The position numbers and the translations under genes are program-made. From assembly GCA_902768125.1 (NCBI GenBank), contig CACXKA010000015.1, forward strand, positions 1 through 46,456: a stretch of 46,456 nucleotides of DNA, given 5' to 3'. The DNA comes from an uncultured Bacteroidales bacterium. Lineage in GTDB: Bacteria; Bacteroidota; Bacteroidia; Bacteroidales; Bacteroidaceae. The notes beneath the pieces were generated by a model. That model saw only the letters and a program-made list of their open reading frames with translations. It searched no databases and was not told the origin of the DNA. Below are positions 38,289 through 46,456 of the stretch, piece after piece (the stretch's first letter is position 1; each line of letters starts with the position of its first letter).

Positions 38289-40877
38289 ATGAAGAAATTT
38301 ACAACACTCCAGCAAGCGCTGAAATACTACTTTGGCTTTGACACGTTCAAAGGTGACCAAGAGGCTATCATCAAAAACCTTCTTGATCATAAGGACACCT
38401 TTGTGCTGATGCCAACTGGTGGCGGTAAGTCTTTGTGCTACCAGTTGCCTGCATTGCTGATGGAGGGAACGGCGATTGTGATTTCTCCGCTGATTGCCTT
38501 GATGAAGAACCAAGTGGATGCCATCAAGCACATCAGCGAGGAGGACAGCGTGGCTCATTTCATCAATTCTTCATTGAGCAAGGCGAATATTGACCAGGTG
38601 AAGGCTGACATCATGGCGGGCAAGACGAAGATGCTGTATGTTGCCCCTGAATCGTTGACCAAGGAGGATAACGTGGATTTCCTGAGACAGGTCAACATCT
38701 CATTCTTTGCCATCGACGAAGCGCATTGTATTTCAGAATGGGGACATGATTTCCGTCCTGAGTATCGCAAGATCCGTCCAGTCATCAACTGGATTGCGAT
38801 GGCGCCTGTTATCAAGTTGTTCTTGCCAAGAGAGAAATTGCTTGTCATCAAGGCAATCAGCGATACTTATCGCCAGAAGAAGCAGAAATATGATGAGATG
38901 AGCAAGGACTTCAAGCAGTTCCCAGAACGCGTGGATGAGAAAGAGATGGAGGCCTTGGGCAATAGTGTGAAGGGATTGGCAGAAGTCATTGACTTCATGG
39001 CTGAGATGAAAGACCAGATTAAGGAGAAGTCAGACAAGTGTCCTCGATTGGATTCCCATTTCGTGGATGCCTTGTTGGAAATGATGCCAGGCATCCGTCG
39101 CGACTATCAGTCTTTGCGTGAGCGGATGGCTGATGAGCCTGCTGTGATGGCATTGCCCGACCTCCCAACCGATGAAGCCATCAAGGAGGCTTCCTCCAAG
39201 ATATATGACGCTCCAGTCATTGCCCTGACTGCTACAGCGACTGACAAGGTGCGTAACGATATCAAGAAGAATCTGGGCATCATTGACGCCAAGGACTACA
39301 AATCTTCCTTCAACCGTCAGAACCTCTACTATGAGGTGCGCCAGAAAACTGCGGATGTGGAAAAGGACATCATCAAGTTCATCAAGCAGCATCCGAACAA
39401 GAGTGGTATCATCTACTGCCTGAGCCGTAAGAAGGTGGAGGATTTGGCAGAGGTGCTTCGTGCCAACAACATCAAGGCGGCTGCCTACCATGCAGGTATG
39501 GACAACAAAGACCGCAATGAAACACAGGACGATTTCATCATGGAACGCGTGGATGTCATTGTGGCTACGATTGCCTTTGGTATGGGTATTGACAAACCCG
39601 ATGTGCGCTATGTCATCCATTACGATATCCCCAAGAGTTTGGAGGGCTATTATCAGGAGACAGGTCGTGCAGGACGAGATGGCGGCGAAGGTAAGTGCAT
39701 CACCTATTATTGCCACAAGGACCTTGAGAAGCTGGAGAAGTTCATGAAGGACAAGACGCCAGCGGAGAAAGATATCGGCACCCATCTCTTGAGTGAGACA
39801 GCCGCCTACTGTGAATCGTCCGTTTGTCGTCGCAAGATGCTGTTGCATTACTTTGGCGAGGAATACGACAAGGACAATTGTGGTAACTGCGACAACTGTC
39901 TGCATCCGAAGACCAAGAGCGACCAGAAGGACAACCTCTTGCTGGCTCTGCAAACCATCTTGGCGGTGAAGGAGAACTTCAGGAAAGAACATATCATCAA
40001 CATCTTACGAGGTGAAGAGAATGAAACCATCCTGAGTCACAAGCACGACAAACTGGAGCAGTTTGGTACTGGCGCAGATGTGGAGGAAACCATGTGGGAT
40101 GCCATCTTCATACAAGCAGGTCTCGATGGCTACATCGACAAGGAAGTGGAATCTTATGGTTCTCTGAAACTGACGAAGGCGGGCAAGAAATTCATCAAGA
40201 AACCCGTGCCGTTCATGGTGGTGGAGAACAACGACTTCGATGGTGATTTCGATGACAGTTCCGACCAAGGAGGTACAGGCGTGGCAGACGAGGTGTTGTA
40301 TGGCATGCTGTTAGACCTTCGGAAGAAAATCGCCCAAAAATACGATGTCCCTCCGTATGTGGTGTTCCAGGATGCATCGCTCGAATCAATGTCCACCCTG
40401 TATCCTGTCAACGAAGAGGAATTGCAAAACATCCCAGGCGTGGGGGCAGGAAAAGCCAAACGCTATGGTGCAGAGTTCTGCAAACTCATCCAGAGACATT
40501 GTGAAGATAATGACATCGTTCGTCCTACCGATATGCGTGTCAGGACAGTAGCCAATAAATCAAAAGTGAAAGTAAAAATCATACAAGCCATCGACCGAAA
40601 GGTAAGCCTTGAGGACATTGCCAAGAGCAACGGACTCGACTTCGACGAATTGCTCGATGAGATGGAGGCAATCGTATATAGTGGTACGAAACTCAACATC
40701 GACTATTACTTCGAGGACATCGAGATGGATGAAGACATCATCGATGAAATCTACGACTATTTCCGTCAGAGCGACACCGACGATTTGGACACAGCGCTCG
40801 ACAACCTCGATGGCGACATCTACGAGGAAGATGTAAGGCTTGTTCGCATCAAGTTCATTAGCGAATTGGCGAACTAA
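38289..40877 (+). CDS. recQ: RecQ-family DNA helicase with an extra internal segment
   Basis: This 862-residue 3'-5' helicase of recombination and repair has motif I TGGGKSLC (43-50), DEAH (143-146), motif III TATA (314-317) and GRAGRDG (459-465). A Cys4 zinc site follows (about 513-537, CGNCDNC), then an RQC winged-helix region (about 545-640) and an HRDC domain (about 665-740). After that comes an acidic, helix-turn-helix-like tail. Bacteroidetes RecQ usually has about 720-730 residues. The excess is a charged helical segment at about 176-307, between motifs II and III and bounded by the repeated word APVI (172-175 and 308-311). The frame is intact throughout. Activity should be retained, but the insertion is unusual. 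Confidence 0.92.
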
Positions 40878-40888
40878 AGATGAAAATT

Positions 40889-42466
<1,578 letters not shown>

Positions 42467-42481
42467 TAAAAAGACAATCAT

Positions 42482-42520
42482 AATAAAGGGCTGTACCAAT
42501 CGGTGCAGCCCTTTATTTGT
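42482..42520. terminator. bidirectional terminator between guaB and the nfn gene
   Basis: AATAAAGGGCTGTACC (42482-42497) pairs with GGTGCAGCCCTTTATT (42502-42517) around AATC, followed by TGTTG. The loop AATC is the same as in the hairpin at 289-324. Confidence 0.82.
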
Positions 42521-42535
42521 TGATGTATGTATGTT

Positions 42536-44887
42536 TTATGCTTGCTCTTTCAGCATCGCGTCAATGTTGGCAGCAGCCTTGCGACCATCACCCATTGCCA
42601 AGATGACTGTAGCACCACCACGCACGATGTCGCCACCTGCAAAGATGGTTGGGATGTTCGACTGCATCTTCTCGTTCACAGCGATGGTGTTCTTGCGACC
42701 CAGTTCGAGACCTTCCACAGACTTTGGAACGATTGGGTTGGGAGACACACCCACTGCCACAACGGCGAGGTCGATGTCGCGAGTGACAATCTTGCCTTCC
42801 ACAGGGATAGGGGAACGACGGCCTGATGCATCTGGCTCGCCCAATTCCATCACCTGGAGTTTCACCTGCGTCACGTTGCCCTTCTCGTCAGCGATGTATT
42901 CGATAGGGTTGTGGAGCGTGAGGAACTCGATGCCCTCTTCCTTAGCATGCTTCACCTCTTCGAGACGTGCAGGCATTTCAGCCTCGCTACGACGGTAAGC
43001 GATGAACACGTTCTCAGCACCCAGACGCTTTGCCGTACGGCAAGAGTCCATAGCAGTGTTACCACCACCGACAACCATCACGTTCTTAGCCTTCACGATA
43101 GGTGTGTCAGATGCAGGGTTGCTGGCATCCATGAGGTTGATACGAGTGAGGTATTCGTTAGATGACATGATGCCCACGCTGTTCTCACCAGGGATGTTCA
43201 TGAAGTTAGGCAGACCTGCACCAGAAGCCACGAAGATAGCCTTGTAGCCCTCCTTCTCGAGGTCCTCGATCGTAATGGTCTTACCCACGATGCAATCCTT
43301 CACGAAGTTCACACCAATCTTGCGGAGGTTCTCGATTTCCACATCCACGATGGCGTTAGGCAGACGGAACTCAGGAATACCATACTTGAGCACACCGCCA
43401 ATCTCGTGCAATGCCTCGAACACAGTCACTTCGTAACCAGCCTTCGCCAAGTCGCCTGCACAAGAAAGACCTGCAGGACCTGAACCCACGATAGCCACCT
43501 TCTTGCCGTTCTTTGGCGCACACTCTGGGAGTGCCATCTTGCCTGACTGGCGTTCGAAGTCAGCAGCGAAACGCTCCAAGTTACCGATAGCCACAGCCTT
43601 GTGACCCATCTTCAGGTGGATACACTTGCTCTCACACTGCTTCTCCTGAGGACATACACGACCACAGACAGCGGGTAGGGCAGAAGTGGCTTTGAGCACC
43701 TTGGCAGCCTCCAAGAACTGACCACGCTCGATGTTCTTCACGAACGATGGGATATTGATGCTGACAGGACAGCCCTCCATACAAGAAGGCTTCACGCAGT
43801 CGAGACAACGCTTTGCTTCCGTGAGTGCCTGGTCGATGGTGAGACCCGTGTTCACCTCCTCAGTGCGAGTGGTGGCACGATAGACAGGGTCAAGTTCGCC
43901 CATCACGCAACGCTCAATCTCGCCACGCTCCTTTGCCTTCATGCTGCCAGCCAATTCCTTGCGCCATGCAGCGTTGCGGTCGAGGAGTTCAGCCAGTGGC
44001 GTGTCAGTCGTCATGCCAGCAGCGTCAGCCTTCGCCTCTTCCTTCTTCGTGGCAGCAACACCTTCCACGTGCTCCTCCAACTTCTTCATCTCTTCGATTT
44101 CGATAGGCTTGAAGGCACCCATACGCTTGAACATCTCGTCGAAGTCCACCTCGTGACCGTCAAACTCAGGACCATCCACGCAGACGAAACGAGTCTTGCC
44201 ACCCACCGTGATACGGCAAGCACCACACATACCCGTACCGTCCACCATGATCGTGTTGAGCGACACGTCAGTAGGCACGTTATATTTCTTTGTCAAGAGA
44301 CAGCAGAACTTCATCATGATGGCAGGACCAATGGCAAAGCACTTGTCCACCTTCTCGCGCTGAATCACCTGCTCGATGCCGACAGTCACCACACCCTTCT
44401 GACCGTACGAACCGTCGTCCGTCATGATGATGACCTCGTCAGAGTGCTTGCGCACCTCATCCTCGAGGATGATCAACTCCTTCGTGCGACCAGCCAACAC
44501 AGACACGACCTTGTTGCCAGCAGCCTTCAAAGCCTTGATGATAGGGAGCATGGGAGCCACACCCACACCACCACCGGCACAAACGACCGTGCCGAACTTC
44601 TCGATGTGAGTAGCCTGACCCAGAGGACCCACCACGTCAGTGATGTAGTCACCCTCATTGAGGTTACAGAGTTTAGTAGAAGAATAACCCACCTTCTGCA
44701 CCACCAGTGTGATGGTGCCAGCTTCGATGTCGCTGTCAGCGATGGTGAGAGGCATGCGCTCGCCCTGTTCGCCCACGCGAACAATCACGAAATGACCAGC
44801 CTTGCGAGATTTAGCAATGAGAGGAGCCTCCACAACCAGTTTGAAGACCTTCTCACTGAACTGCTCTTTCTTAACGATCTTATTCAT
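42536..44887 (-). CDS. fused NfnA-NfnB: NADH-dependent reduced ferredoxin:NADP+ oxidoreductase-like
   Basis: This 783-residue flavo-iron-sulfur protein fuses two modules. Residues 1-275 resemble NfnA / dihydroorotate dehydrogenase electron-transfer subunit: a FAD domain with RMPLTIAD, an NAD site (CAGGGVGVAPMLP) and a [2Fe-2S] loop with DGTGMCGACR and FVCVDGPEFD. Residues 300-783 resemble NfnB / glutamate synthase small subunit: N-terminal [4Fe-4S] cysteines (CLDCVKPSCMEGCP and VCPQEKQCESKC), a FAD motif (VGSGPAGLSCAG) and an NADPH motif (VGGGNTAMDS). No glutamate synthase large subunit or pyrD adjoins it, so an electron-bifurcating transhydrogenase role is more likely than a GltD or PyrK role. 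The fusion is common in Bacteroidetes and is often annotated as a bifunctional protein. Confidence 0.85.
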   Translation of the reverse strand: MNKIVKKEQFSEKVFKLVVEAPLIAKSRKAGHFVIVRVGEQGERMPLTIADSDIEAGTITLVVQKVGYSSTKLCNLNEGDYITDVVGPLGQATHIEKFGTVVCAGGGVGVAPMLPIIKALKAAGNKVVSVLAGRTKELIILEDEVRKHSDEVIIMTDDGSYGQKGVVTVGIEQVIQREKVDKCFAIGPAIMMKFCCLLTKKYNVPTDVSLNTIMVDGTGMCGACRITVGGKTRFVCVDGPEFDGHEVDFDEMFKRMGAFKPIEIEEMKKLEEHVEGVAATKKEEAKADAAGMTTDTPLAELLDRNAAWRKELAGSMKAKERGEIERCVMGELDPVYRATTRTEEVNTGLTIDQALTEAKRCLDCVKPSCMEGCPVSINIPSFVKNIERGQFLEAAKVLKATSALPAVCGRVCPQEKQCESKCIHLKMGHKAVAIGNLERFAADFERQSGKMALPECAPKNGKKVAIVGSGPAGLSCAGDLAKAGYEVTVFEALHEIGGVLKYGIPEFRLPNAIVDVEIENLRKIGVNFVKDCIVGKTITIEDLEKEGYKAIFVASGAGLPNFMNIPGENSVGIMSSNEYLTRINLMDASNPASDTPIVKAKNVMVVGGGNTAMDSCRTAKRLGAENVFIAYRRSEAEMPARLEEVKHAKEEGIEFLTLHNPIEYIADEKGNVTQVKLQVMELGEPDASGRRSPIPVEGKIVTRDIDLAVVAVGVSPNPIVPKSVEGLELGRKNTIAVNEKMQSNIPTIFAGGDIVRGGATVILAMGDGRKAAANIDAMLKEQA

Positions 44888-45156
44888 AATAATAATATCT
44901 AAAATTATCTTTTTACCATTAGTTTACGTAAAAAACGGTGCAAAGTTACTACTTTTTTTTTACTTCTCAATGATTTCTCATTATTAATAATAAGTTTTTT
45001 CGTTTTTTAGTTTCTTAATTTCAAATATCAAAACTATTAATGAGCTGAAGGTTCATGGGCATTTATGATTTTTCTTTTAACATATATTTATCAGGAATTG
45101 TCCAGAAATTATTCATAAATTAAATTTGTGTTCGGTTTTCTCTGTTTTTCTTGGAA
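44888..45156. other. AT-rich intergenic region upstream of nfn
   Basis: This stretch carries the nfn promoter element and otherwise AT-rich DNA with long T-runs. A 22-codon ATG-TAA frame (45055-45123) has no supporting signal. No gene is called here. Confidence 0.6.
44941..44948 (-). promoter_or_regulatory. -7 element for nfn
   Basis: TAACTTTG on the minus strand matches TAnnTTTG, 53 nt upstream of the ATG. ATTG, 19 nt further up (44968-44971), may be the -33 element. Confidence 0.6.
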
Positions 45157-45263
45157 GTGCTGCCAGCCGCAGGCTATTCTGAGTTGTCGGGCAAGGGCTG
45201 TCGAGCTTGCTTGAACAGAACTTGAATGAGAACTTAGAATGAGGCTCGTAGAGCCAGCAGCAC
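45157..45263 (+). repeat. 107-bp semi-palindromic repeat, copy A
   Basis: This unit is inverted relative to 45699-45805. Both are exactly 107 bp, with about 12 mismatches (near 89% identity by eye). The ends are GTGCTGC and GCAGCAC, and the two halves are imperfect reverse complements of each other, so a single strand could fold into a long hairpin. Seven nt after the unit comes GGTTTTCGTGGTTTTT. No coding function is apparent. Confidence 0.85.
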
Positions 45264-45270
45264 CTCCAAG

Positions 45271-45294
45271 GGTTTTCGTGGTTTTTGTTTTTTC
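45271..45294 (+). repeat. 24-nt direct repeat, copy 1
   Basis: These 24 nt, beginning GGTTTTCGTGG, recur exactly at 46002-46025. A degenerate, inverted version (GGTTTTAATGGTTTTC on the minus strand, about 45677-45692) lies 7 nt beyond copy B. All three stand at one edge of a palindromic element. Confidence 0.85.
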
Positions 45295-45320
45295 CGTCTT
45301 TTTCGGAATCTTTGACCTTT

Positions 45321-45400
45321 AACCGTTAACCTTAAACTTTTGAACCTTTGAACTTTGAACTTTGAACTCTTGACTTAAACCTCCAACCTCAAAACTCAAA
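45321..45400. repeat. short degenerate tandem repeats (AACCTT/GAACTTT/AACCTC)
   Basis: Runs of 6-8 nt units (CCTTTAACCGTTAACC, TTTGAACTTTGAACTTTGAA, CTCCAACCTCAAAACTC) fill the stretch before the smalltalk 3' end. They are inverted relatives of the TTTGAGG units in the ilvD-ilvB spacer. Confidence 0.6.
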
Positions 45401-45433
45401 TCTCTTATCGTATCTTTAGCACGCTTGGCTTGC
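45398..45433 (-). repeat. 36-nt repeat overlapping the smalltalk stop codon
   Basis: This is the exact inverted copy of 13166-13201. It covers the last five codons, the stop (45416-45418) and 18 nt of downstream sequence. Confidence 0.85.
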
Positions 45434-45538
45434 CAAGAAACCTAAGCACGAGGTTGTTCCGAGTGCTGTCAGGAATGCTGTGAGTGCAGCTACTACAATC
45501 TTCACCACAATCTCCAATGCTCTTTGCTTCTTATCCAT
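45416..45538 (-). CDS. smalltalk-type small protein
   Basis: This 40-residue protein starts MDKKQRALEIVVKIVV, continues with a hydrophobic stretch (about 11-27) and has the LGTTSC motif near its end. Charge, length, hydrophobic centre and TSC ending match the tiny Bacteroidetes family named 'smalltalk protein', usually found beside HU-like DNA-binding proteins and an N-acetylmuramoyl-L-alanine amidase. The function is unknown; the Cys after a hydrophobic helix suggests a membrane peptide. Here the C-terminus runs nine residues past the Cys. The gene is downstream of the Gly/Asn-tailed gene on the same strand (600 bp), but no amidase follows. The ATG at 45538 is preferred over an upstream frame that only translates hexamer repeats. 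Confidence 0.72.
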   Translation of the reverse strand: MDKKQRALEIVVKIVVAALTAFLTALGTTSCLGFLASQAC

Positions 45539-45546
45539 AATCTTTT

Positions 45547-45591
45547 TAACCTTAACGATAACCTTAACCTTAACCTTAACTTTAACTTTAA
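45547..45591. repeat. AACCTT/AAGGTT hexamer tandem repeat upstream of smalltalk
   Basis: About seven 6-nt units (CCTTAA, with some CGATAA and TTTAAC variants) end 9 nt before the smalltalk ATG on its 5' side. On the coding strand they read GTTAAG, so they place several AAGG-like sequences in the leader. Unit-number changes could alter spacing and thus expression, which is speculative. Confidence 0.65.
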
Positions 45592-45599
45592 TTCTCACA

Positions 45600-45670
45600 C
45601 AGATTTCACGGATTTCACGGATTTTTTTTGTCCACGAACCTTCAGCTCGGCGGAGCCAATTTCACGGATT
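45600..45670. repeat. ATTTCACGG-type repeats
   Basis: CAGATTTCACGGATTTCACGG (tandem 9-mers at about 45601-45622) and a further AATTTCACGGATTT (45659-45672) flank a short GCTCGGCGGAGCC palindrome (about 45645-45657). GGCTC..GAGCC words of the same kind occur inside the 107-bp units. Non-coding. Confidence 0.6.
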
Positions 45671-45698
45671 TGAAAGAAAACCATTAAAACCTCGCTCT

Positions 45699-45805
45699 GT
45701 GCTGCTGGCTCTGCGAGCCTCATTCTAATCTGCCTTTCAAGTTCTGTTCGAACAAGCTCGACAGTCCTTGCCCGACATCTCAGAATAGCCTACGGCTTGC
45801 AGCAC
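45699..45805 (-). repeat. 107-bp semi-palindromic repeat, copy B (inverted)
   Basis: This is the inverted partner of 45157-45263, about 89% identical by eye. Together A and B enclose the smalltalk gene and 435 bp of DNA. On the minus strand the unit is followed after 7 nt by GGTTTTAATGGTTTTC, matching the layout beside copy A. Confidence 0.85.
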
Positions 45806-45870
45806 TCAGCGAAAAACCTAAAAAATTAACGATGAACAATCAATAGGTTCCCACATAATGTTCTTGGTTT

Positions 45871-46001
45871 TTCTTTTGGACAGGTTGAAATCCTGATAAG
45901 GATGAGATGATGTGGATGAAGACTTTTATCTGTGAGCTGGCTCACAAGGAAAAGAATACAGATACAACATCATAGACGATGGTCTTAACCTGAACAAAAG
46001 A
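45871..46001. repeat. 131-bp imperfect palindrome
   Basis: The centre is a perfect 7-bp stem, TGTGAGC (45931-45937) with GCTCACA (45940-45946), loop TG. The outer arms TCTTTTG..CAGGTT (about 45872-45886) and AACCTG..CAAAAGA (45987-46001) are again inverted, and GATGATGT pairs loosely with ACATCATA. The transcript would fold into one long hairpin. It abuts the second copy of the 24-nt GGTTTTCGTGG repeat at 46002. It could be a MITE-like element or a structured RNA. Confidence 0.65.
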
Positions 46002-46025
46002 GGTTTTCGTGGTTTTTGTTTTTTC
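46002..46025 (+). repeat. 24-nt direct repeat, copy 2
   Basis: Identical to 45271-45294 over 24 nt. It begins at the edge of the 131-bp palindrome. Confidence 0.85.
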
Positions 46026-46113
46026 GATGTTTTAGAAATCAAATCATCTGCGGTTTCTGTGCTATCTGTGCGACCTTTTTCATTTTCTCATTTTTTCATT
46101 CTTTCATTCTCAA

Positions 46114-46141
46114 AAGGTTGCGCCCGAAGGCGCGAACCTTA
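46114..46141 (-). terminator. terminator overlapping the stop of the right-end gene
   Basis: AAGGTT with AACCTT and GCGCC with GGCGC form a stacked stem with one bulged G around a CGAA loop (46114-46140). The TAA stop codon of the minus-strand gene sits at the stem base. The following minus-strand sequence is A/T-rich with T-runs. Confidence 0.65.
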
Positions 46142-46456
46142 TGAGCCTGTGTCGAAGCCACCACTTCCACCGTTGTTGCCACCGTTGTTGTCACCACCAG
46201 AGTTGCCTCCTGTGTTGGTACCACCGTTGTTCTCACCACCGCCGGTCTCTTCGCCTTCTGCATCCACGATGTCCCAAGCGGAAAGCGGGGTGCGGAGGGT
46301 GTAGGACTTCTCCTTGCCGCCGATGGTCTTCTTGAAGGTCTCCACCAGGTAGGCGAACTGGAGGGAACACTGGTCCTTGAACTTCTTCGAGGTGATTTCC
46401 TCGCCCTGTGCGTTCTCAGGCAGGAAGGTGAAGTTCACGCCTGCCACCATGTTGTT
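46139..46456 (-). CDS. Gly/Asn-rich C-terminal tail protein (5' end outside window)
   Basis: The open frame continues past the right edge; about 105 codons are visible before TAA at 46139-46141. A globular part (about 70 residues, with GVNFTFLPENAQGEEITSKK and a basic, mixed alpha/beta character) is followed by a Gly/Asn-rich tail ending GGFDTGS. The last 28 residues differ from those of the left-end gene only at the final position. I do not recognise the globular part for certain. The place upstream of a smalltalk gene suggests an HU-like nucleoid protein of the kind Bacteroidetes carry with Gly-rich tails, but this is context, not motif evidence. Confidence 0.6.
   Translation of the reverse strand, partial: NNMVAGVNFTFLPENAQGEEITSKKFKDQCSLQFAYLVETFKKTIGGKEKSYTLRTPLSAWDIVDAEGEETGGGENNGGTNTGGNSGGDNNGGNNGGSGGFDTGS

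Follow-up and report, generated by a model that had tools for sequence, protein, structure and literature searches.

Repeats at the end of the contig

The window, by which is meant the whole 46,456-nucleotide stretch of DNA that was analysed, ends in a region where a glutamate-synthase-like gene, a smalltalk gene and an ORF without assignment are the neighbours of a pair of inverted repeats. The repeats, here called hp1, are of the same length, lie on opposite strands and are about 89% identical, just as the earlier note had described them: copy A at 45157-45263 (+) and copy B at 45699-45805 (-) are each 107 nt, and 95/107 positions agree. An inverted-repeat search of the window returns arms of 108 nt that are 89% complementary, with 435 nt between them. 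Chance is excluded as the origin of the repeat, since in a search of the genome copy B matches a 151-bp query around copy A at E=1.5e-34. On its own strand, each copy is followed by the 7-nt spacer and GGTTTT module that had been claimed for it (GGTTTTCGTGGTTTTTG at copy A, GGTTTTAATGGTTTTC at copy B), and a module of this kind, GGTTTTNNNGGTTTTTG, occurs 8 times in the genome versus 0 times for its reversed control. A second hairpin, hp2, had been overlooked; it is unrelated to hp1 in sequence, carries the same outer module and stands back to back with copy B. The features of the region are as follows.

45140-45156 (+): inner T-rich module of copy A (CTCTGTTTTTCTTGGAA), which pairs partly with the outer side and extends the stem
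45157-45263 (+): hp1 copy A, a cloverleaf hairpin, apparently solo (hp2 partner not found); R1 model 129.9 bits over 45151-45269
45264-45290 (+): outer module of copy A, 7-nt spacer plus GGTTTTCGTGGTTTTTG
45416-45538 (-): smalltalk gene, 40 aa, MDKKQRALEIVVKIVV...; a neighbour, outside the element
45596-45625 (no strand): periodic repeat CACACAGATTTCACGGATTTCACGGATT, outside the hp1 side of the window pair
45677-46018 (no strand): MITE-like derivative without a gene, rc(hp1)-67 bp-hp2, with the order and orientation found around the intact GxxExxY gene C1:5346-5783 of this genome (G000)
45677-45698 (-): outer module of copy B; its AAAACCATTAAAACCT is the mirror of the module outside hp2
45699-45805 (-): hp1 copy B, one end of the hp1-hp2 pair; R1 model 119.7 bits over 45693-45811
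45879-46000 (+): hp2, the second cloverleaf hairpin and other end of the pair; R2 model 106.4 bits
46001-46018 (+): outer module of hp2, GGTTTTCGTGGTTTTTG
46046-46073 (no strand): periodic repeat ATCTGCGGTTTCTGTGCTATCTGTGCGA, in opposite orientation, outside the hp2 side (by eye)

The terminal inverted repeats of the window pair are its outward modules, which are inversely oriented at the two ends. The periodic repeats were considered as a clean terminal inverted repeat of the pair and set aside, the automatic inverted alignment having picked the AAAACC modules instead; repeats like CACACAGATTTCACGGATTTCACGGATT also lie outside hp2 on contigs C6, C13, C17, C21, and C27 of the genome. No gene remnant was found in the 67-bp linker.

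Among nine relatives in which the flank was read, synteny stops short of the window repeats. The ORF at 46139-46450, near the contig end, has a Gly/Asn-rich tail and may be HU-like; it has no Pfam or NCBIfam match. A phage or plasmid origin of the repeats was dismissed, as there is no match in either sequence collection; two IMG/VR pattern matches look like chance and are accompanied by no hairpin-model match. A known RNA family was likewise discarded for the hairpins, no Rfam family reaching threshold in 40000-46456, where two sub-threshold matches lie elsewhere in the region and no rRNA family is found. No terminator-like site was scored in 44900-46140.

A conserved cloverleaf fold

The copies had been taken for imperfect palindromes with GTGCTGC/GCAGCAC ends. 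The ends are exact, but the unit is not a simple end-to-end palindrome (ungapped self-complementarity of the two 107-nt copies is 36/107 and 40/107); it is a four-way cloverleaf. hp1 and hp2 share this architecture, which consists of an outer stem, a small hairpin, a long central stem and a second small hairpin, and T-rich modules flank both.

Covariation was assessed in sequence-only MAFFT alignments of 7 hp1 and 11 hp2 sequences, each with 500 shuffles, plus slid controls. In these alignments, which hold few, related sequences and from which the structure was itself derived, 6/44 pairs of hp1 and 10/36 pairs of hp2 are changed on both sides, numbers that are equalled by 5/500 and 0/500 of the shuffles, respectively; the shuffles keep the relatedness. 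The cells with both-side changes (11 in hp1, 23 in hp2) exceed 500/500 shuffles in both alignments, with the slid controls reaching at most 5. Further pair types do not rise above the shuffles in either alignment (73/500 and 224/500). The cloverleaf fold is conserved, with compensatory changes.

An internal-loop motif, ATCT...AAGGA, located beside the apical stem, is kept (by eye) in the central stems of hp2 and of the hairpins at L166, L195, and L205. Shared by otherwise unlike hairpins, this motif is a possible recognition point.

Dispersal of hp1 and hp2 in the genome

The copy search that the earlier note had called for, run with 151 bp around copy A, gave 11 matches in the 41-contig draft, and BLAST with an hp2 relative as query gave 10 matches in this genome. 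With strands merged, the covariance models place hp2 at 9 distinct places (18 matches) and hp1 at 7 (12 matches), one of the 7 having a loop insertion. The idea of a dispersed, non-coding, MITE-like family is borne out by these 7 hp1 places and by additional fragments; as MITEs are, the hairpins are short, non-coding, multi-copy and intergenic.

The two hairpins usually occur together. An hp1 or hp1 fragment adjoins 8/9 hp2 places, diverging from it as rc(hp1)-hp2, and the ninth place (C13) is cut by a contig end. At C6, C17, C21, and C27, the hp1 partner is merely a fragment. Seemingly solo hp1 copies are present at C15:45151 and C25:1777, and the copy on C11 sits at the contig start. Six of the 82 contig ends (on C11, C13, C17, C21, C26, and C27) fall inside such a unit or no more than 25 bp from one; because near-identical copies break the assembly, the true copy number is probably higher.

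Two individual copies are unusual. One hp1 copy on C1 (L037:17386-17566) is 181 nt long, with about 75 nt extra in its terminal loop that are partly foldable themselves; it is a hairpin with a passenger in its loop. Another hp1 copy is the same in two species (L003 on G000 C25 and L009 on G006 C25), but the G006 copy breaks off within the hairpin and so lacks the outer half and the adjoining flank.

Copies that carry a GxxExxY gene

The full form, found at C1:5167-5999, is about 830 bp and reads rc(hairpin)-GxxExxY gene-hairpin, with T-rich modules framing each hairpin. Its intact GxxExxY gene, encoding 145 aa (C1:5346-5783, -), lies between hp2(-) and hp1(+). A truncated GxxExxY gene is located at C1:17702-17827 between hp1(-) and hp2(+), within a copy that spans C1:17380-18008. 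Read along the gene, both copies are rc(hp1)-gene-hp2. The same order and divergent orientation are seen, now without a gene, in the pair at C1:7890-8222 and in the window pair, so that the copies look like a series from full to half to empty. In the gene-bearing copies whose sequence was read, GxxExxY is the sole gene between the hairpins. There is good support for the view that the gene-less window pair derives from a GxxExxY element.

The product of C1:5346-5783 scores 110.6 bits against TIGR04256 (cut-off 35) and 111.1 bits against PF13366 (cut-off 22). The catalytic-type residues D81 and E91-x-K93 do not vary among 38 proteins. An AlphaFold model built for the L143 protein from 38 sequences (pLDDT 93.6) has the compact alpha-beta core expected of PD-(D/E)XK proteins, and its best Foldseek matches are SSO0001 (E 9e-4, TM 0.51, weak), which we take to be Cas4-type, and lambda-type exonucleases. 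The predicted structure and its matches speak for a DNA nuclease but for no specific reaction. Sequence searches found no solved-structure relative of the protein, and the Pfam scan gave PF13366 plus one chance match only, with PF04754 (Rpn) not among them. A role as a defence gene was considered and dropped, there being no PADLOC match.

Two of the copies are missing from the matching site in relatives, as revealed by a comparison of C1:4300-8900 with six of them. At the first site, shared flanking matches are separated by 965-974 bp here, by about 71 bp in G006 and by about 123 bp in G017. The second site holds a pair here, with 393-519 bp between the matches; the pair is lacking in three relatives, namely G006, with no gap between the matches, G013, with 129 bp, and G017, with 364 bp that are unrelated and in part tandem. 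With flanks that are 70-89% alike in G006 and G017, insertion points and target duplication are not readable to the base.

Hairpins at GxxExxY loci in other genomes

A scan of 84,980 species genomes with the GxxExxY protein yielded 115 relatives, the best 80 of which were taken as named loci. These 80 belong mostly to uncultured Prevotellaceae and other Bacteroidales and include Xylanibacter brevis and Hallella mizrahii, both of which have GxxExxY loci with hairpin-model matches. Over the best 80 of 115 loci (463,152 bases), the hairpin covariance models match 88 distinct places at E <=0.01; matches with E 0.01-0.1 (2/33 and 12/94 in the two model scans) were left out. Of the 88 places, 74 lie no more than 400 bp from a GxxExxY gene, in a space of only 62,857 of the 463,152 bases, and 14 lie elsewhere. 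The near hairpins point outward, as predicted, in 62/74 cases; the other 12 point inward. At least one near hairpin is present in 43/80 of these best 80 of 115 loci and both ends are present in 20/80, with the qualification that the loci are partly non-independent and that three of the hairpins used to train the models belong to GxxExxY copies in this genome. A GTTTT-N2..5-GTTTT outer module accompanies 44/62 outward, 6/12 inward and 7/14 far hairpins versus 29/4000 random stretches, leaving 18/62 outward hairpins without one.

The arrangement of the ends varies. At L143, L149, and L170, an hp1-like end lies upstream and an hp2-like end downstream, as in this genome, and L159 has the reverse; at L145, L150, and L163, the hp1 model matches both ends. 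Among 17 elements compared, the likeness of the upstream to the downstream hairpin runs from 0.43 to 0.97 (L163), the between-locus mean being 0.49, and the two ends are alike over their full length in some loci only (L163, and L205 at 0.86, for example). Since the ends of one element can be anything from unlike to near identical, hairpin ends seem to be exchanged between elements.

A hairpin scan of 61 genomes that was not seeded with the gene found R2 matches in 12 genomes and R1 matches in 3, this genome included. Outside this genome, 2/18 hairpin places are beside GxxExxY genes, in the predicted orientation (G001:C16:32855 and G033:C44:5356), and 16/18 have no adjoining GxxExxY gene. PF13366 is present in 37/61 genomes, far more than have R2 or R1 matches, so that many GxxExxY genes, lacking a nearby hairpin of either model, use other ends.

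A probable hairpin-ended element and its relation to known systems

The dispersal, the conserved fold, the specific and oriented linkage to GxxExxY genes across many Bacteroidales, the shortened forms and the two absences are all observed directly. The window repeats are probably the end-hairpins of a small mobile element, the hp1-hp2 pair being a gene-less derivative of a GxxExxY element and copy A a solo hairpin. In the mechanism that we infer, the PD-(D/E)XK nuclease would drive mobility: it would recognise extruded hairpins and cut at or near them, host repair would copy the element into new places, and an intact relative would move gene-less copies in trans. The GxxExxY element is a candidate MITE parent that would supply the enzyme in this way.

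A broader and more tentative proposal, which we hold to be somewhat less probable than its negation, is that such elements form a class of their own, one that moves without any known transposase or recombinase. Their sole gene would be that of the 145-aa GxxExxY nuclease, which would read the cloverleaf ends by shape and not by sequence; the letters of the hairpins could change freely, ends could be swapped, the intergenic repeats of Bacteroidales, both palindromic and periodic, would be seeded by gene-less copies, and S23p/IVP elements would form a sister class. Genomes of Bacteroidales often encode GxxExxY proteins (37/61 searched). If GxxExxY is the enzyme of hairpin-ended elements, many palindromes and periodic repeats between the genes of bacteria from gut and rumen would be explained by one family, as would some breaks in assemblies, and a small stand-alone nuclease would be a mobility enzyme. 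In a literature search largely outside subscription journals and preprints, no description of GxxExxY elements or of hairpin-ended nuclease elements in Bacteroidales was found, and a published passage that mentions GxxExxY assigns it no role.

Although MITE-like in nature, the element has an unusual presumed parent, in which cloverleaf hairpins enclose a GxxExxY nuclease gene and no other. An ordinary MITE, in which hp1 and hp2 are classic transposon ends served by an unrelated transposase and GxxExxY is a passenger, would account for the MITE size and layout of the gene-less copies. GxxExxY is, to our knowledge, not a known transposase, and the genome is 89.66% complete, so the enzyme could be missing from it. 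This explanation is nevertheless unlikely, given that the gene-bearing copies read hold no gene other than GxxExxY between their hairpins, that the 62 outward hairpins of the 74 near ones keep their predicted orientation about it, and that Y1 transposase genes were not found in this genome.

Several known systems invite comparison, among them REP elements and REPINs with their RAYT transposases and integron attC sites (R and L core boxes, integron integrase), to which the hairpins bear a resemblance as folded strands. "REP-like", which the earlier note had offered beside "MITE-like", fits less well. A REP is a palindrome of 20-40 nt tagged with GTAG or CGTC at one end and partnered by a RAYT (PMC3733652); the unit here is 107 nt, has no GTAG or CGTC end tag and contains GTAG only inside a small hairpin. 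A RAYT/REP origin was also rejected on the enzyme: PF01797 (Y1/RAYT) has 0 matches in this 89.66% complete genome versus matches in 5/14 control genomes. More widely, PF01797 has matches in 22/37 genomes; among 10 of the same genus, 3 are strong (G004, G015, G020) and the rest weak. There are likenesses, in that both kinds are palindromes located between genes, alone or as inverted pairs, which are not autonomous and are presumably moved in trans by a hairpin-reading enzyme (PMC3733652), but units here are about 107-120 nt, have several helices and have a PD-(D/E)XK nuclease gene as partner.

BrickBuilt, a MITE of Porphyromonas gingivalis, is similar in comprising short, intergenic, non-coding repeats with inverted ends at some 10-20 per genome (PMC4596501). 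Its ends, of 12 bp, resemble those of ISPg (an IS5-family element), and tandem repeats of 23 nt lie inside it (PMC4596501); the hairpins here, in contrast, form cloverleaf ends, and the element presumed to be their parent has a GxxExxY gene. Rpn/YhgA-like proteins are stand-alone PD-(D/E)XK nucleases that are thought to spread horizontally and to promote RecA-independent recombination (PMC5350276). GxxExxY is likewise a stand-alone PD-(D/E)XK nuclease, but the Pfam families differ (PF04754 for Rpn, PF13366 here).

Inverted repeats around other GxxExxY and S23p genes

Inverted repeats surround GxxExxY genes more widely. The 84 same-genus matches provided a sample of 46 GxxExxY genes, namely the full set of 4 from this genome plus 42 from elsewhere. 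Of this sample, 33/46 lie between inverted repeats that score higher than the 99th percentile of shuffles, versus 5/151 control ORFs (those at multi-gene loci being counted more than once). At the same threshold, 55/79 are bracketed in the best 80 of 115 loci versus 5/94 controls. Many of the bracketing repeats are periodic (CACACAGATAACACAGATT and similar) and other than cloverleaves. The genes of the same-genus set are co-directional with both neighbours in 36/43 cases, compared with 25/70 at the named loci (best 80 of 115) and 5/19 at loci with both cloverleaf ends (a set of 21, with rounded gene ends). Because the orientation bias is present in the same-genus genes and not at the cloverleaf-ended loci, two sub-classes may exist, the first perhaps acting at the RNA level.

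A similar pattern is found at S23p/IVP (PF05635) genes (L223-L251), of which 26/29 tested, from 30 loci fetched, are bracketed by inverted repeats at the same threshold. The median score at these loci is 22.4 for inverted repeats versus 11.1 for direct and 10.7 for cross-locus comparisons. When set against the 99th percentile of inverted scores between loci, 0/29 are higher; this control is probably inflated by near-identical loci such as L239/L240.

These results bear on the possibility that the repeats belong to an RNA-level element resembling the intervening sequences (IVSs) of 23S rRNA, in which RNase III processing or termination makes the insertion harmless. The two are alike as small selfish insertions whose complementary ends enclose a single short ORF, and IVS stems are cut by RNase III (PMC4990558). 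Compensatory pairs would suit an RNA, as would the 36/43 co-directional same-genus genes and the bracketed S23p/IVP genes. However, the bias is absent where both cloverleaf ends are present and across all the named loci, the searches for terminator-like sites and Rfam families described above were negative, and IVSs reside in 23S rRNA and encode S23p, whereas the elements here are intergenic and encode GxxExxY in their full form. An RNA-level origin is improbable, and the mobile element with end-hairpins remains the preferred reading.

Linkage of the hairpins to smalltalk genes

The smalltalk ORF of the window scores 28.2 bits against PF20096 (cut-off 22.7) and 23.9 bits in NCBIfam, just below the cut-off of 24.7. 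It is one of at least 8 smalltalk genes in this draft genome (C6, C13, C17, C21, C25, C26, C27, and 45416-45538 of the window), of which the C25 copy lies at a contig start. The hp2 end stands directly upstream of near-identical smalltalk genes at C6, C13, C17, C21, and C27, and an hp2 fragment is present at C26, so at least 5/9 hp2 places, or 6/10 with the C26 fragment, are just upstream of such a gene. Segmental duplication accounts for these hp2 copies as well as transposition does, and several other hairpin copies may have been multiplied by duplication of smalltalk loci.

Duplication of smalltalk loci in place of transposition is unlikely to explain the copies as a whole. It is true that C6, C13, C17, C21, C27, and the C26 fragment have an hp2 end, a periodic repeat and a smalltalk start that are nearly identical among them, but the three C1 pairs and the copies on contigs of other species have other neighbours, empty counterparts exist for two C1 copies, and the window pair is reversed relative to the smalltalk-linked copies, its hp1 end facing smalltalk.

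The earlier note had the two repeats bracket the smalltalk gene; the geometry is correct, but they do not form a unit, since copy B pairs with hp2, and the bracketing is incidental. An invertible switch, in which the hp1 copies flip the smalltalk segment, would suit their inverted geometry, 435 bp apart, but is very improbable with arms only 89% alike, copy B paired with hp2 instead, and solo or divergent arrangements elsewhere that enclose no smalltalk between two hp1 copies.

S23p matches of this genome lie on other contigs, C6 and C34. The repeats of S23p genes elsewhere often have a period of 6-9 nt, and the runs TTTGAACTTTGAAC and TTAACCTTAACC around the window smalltalk gene (45313-45400, 45540-45592) are likewise periodic and resemble the repeat ends of those genes.
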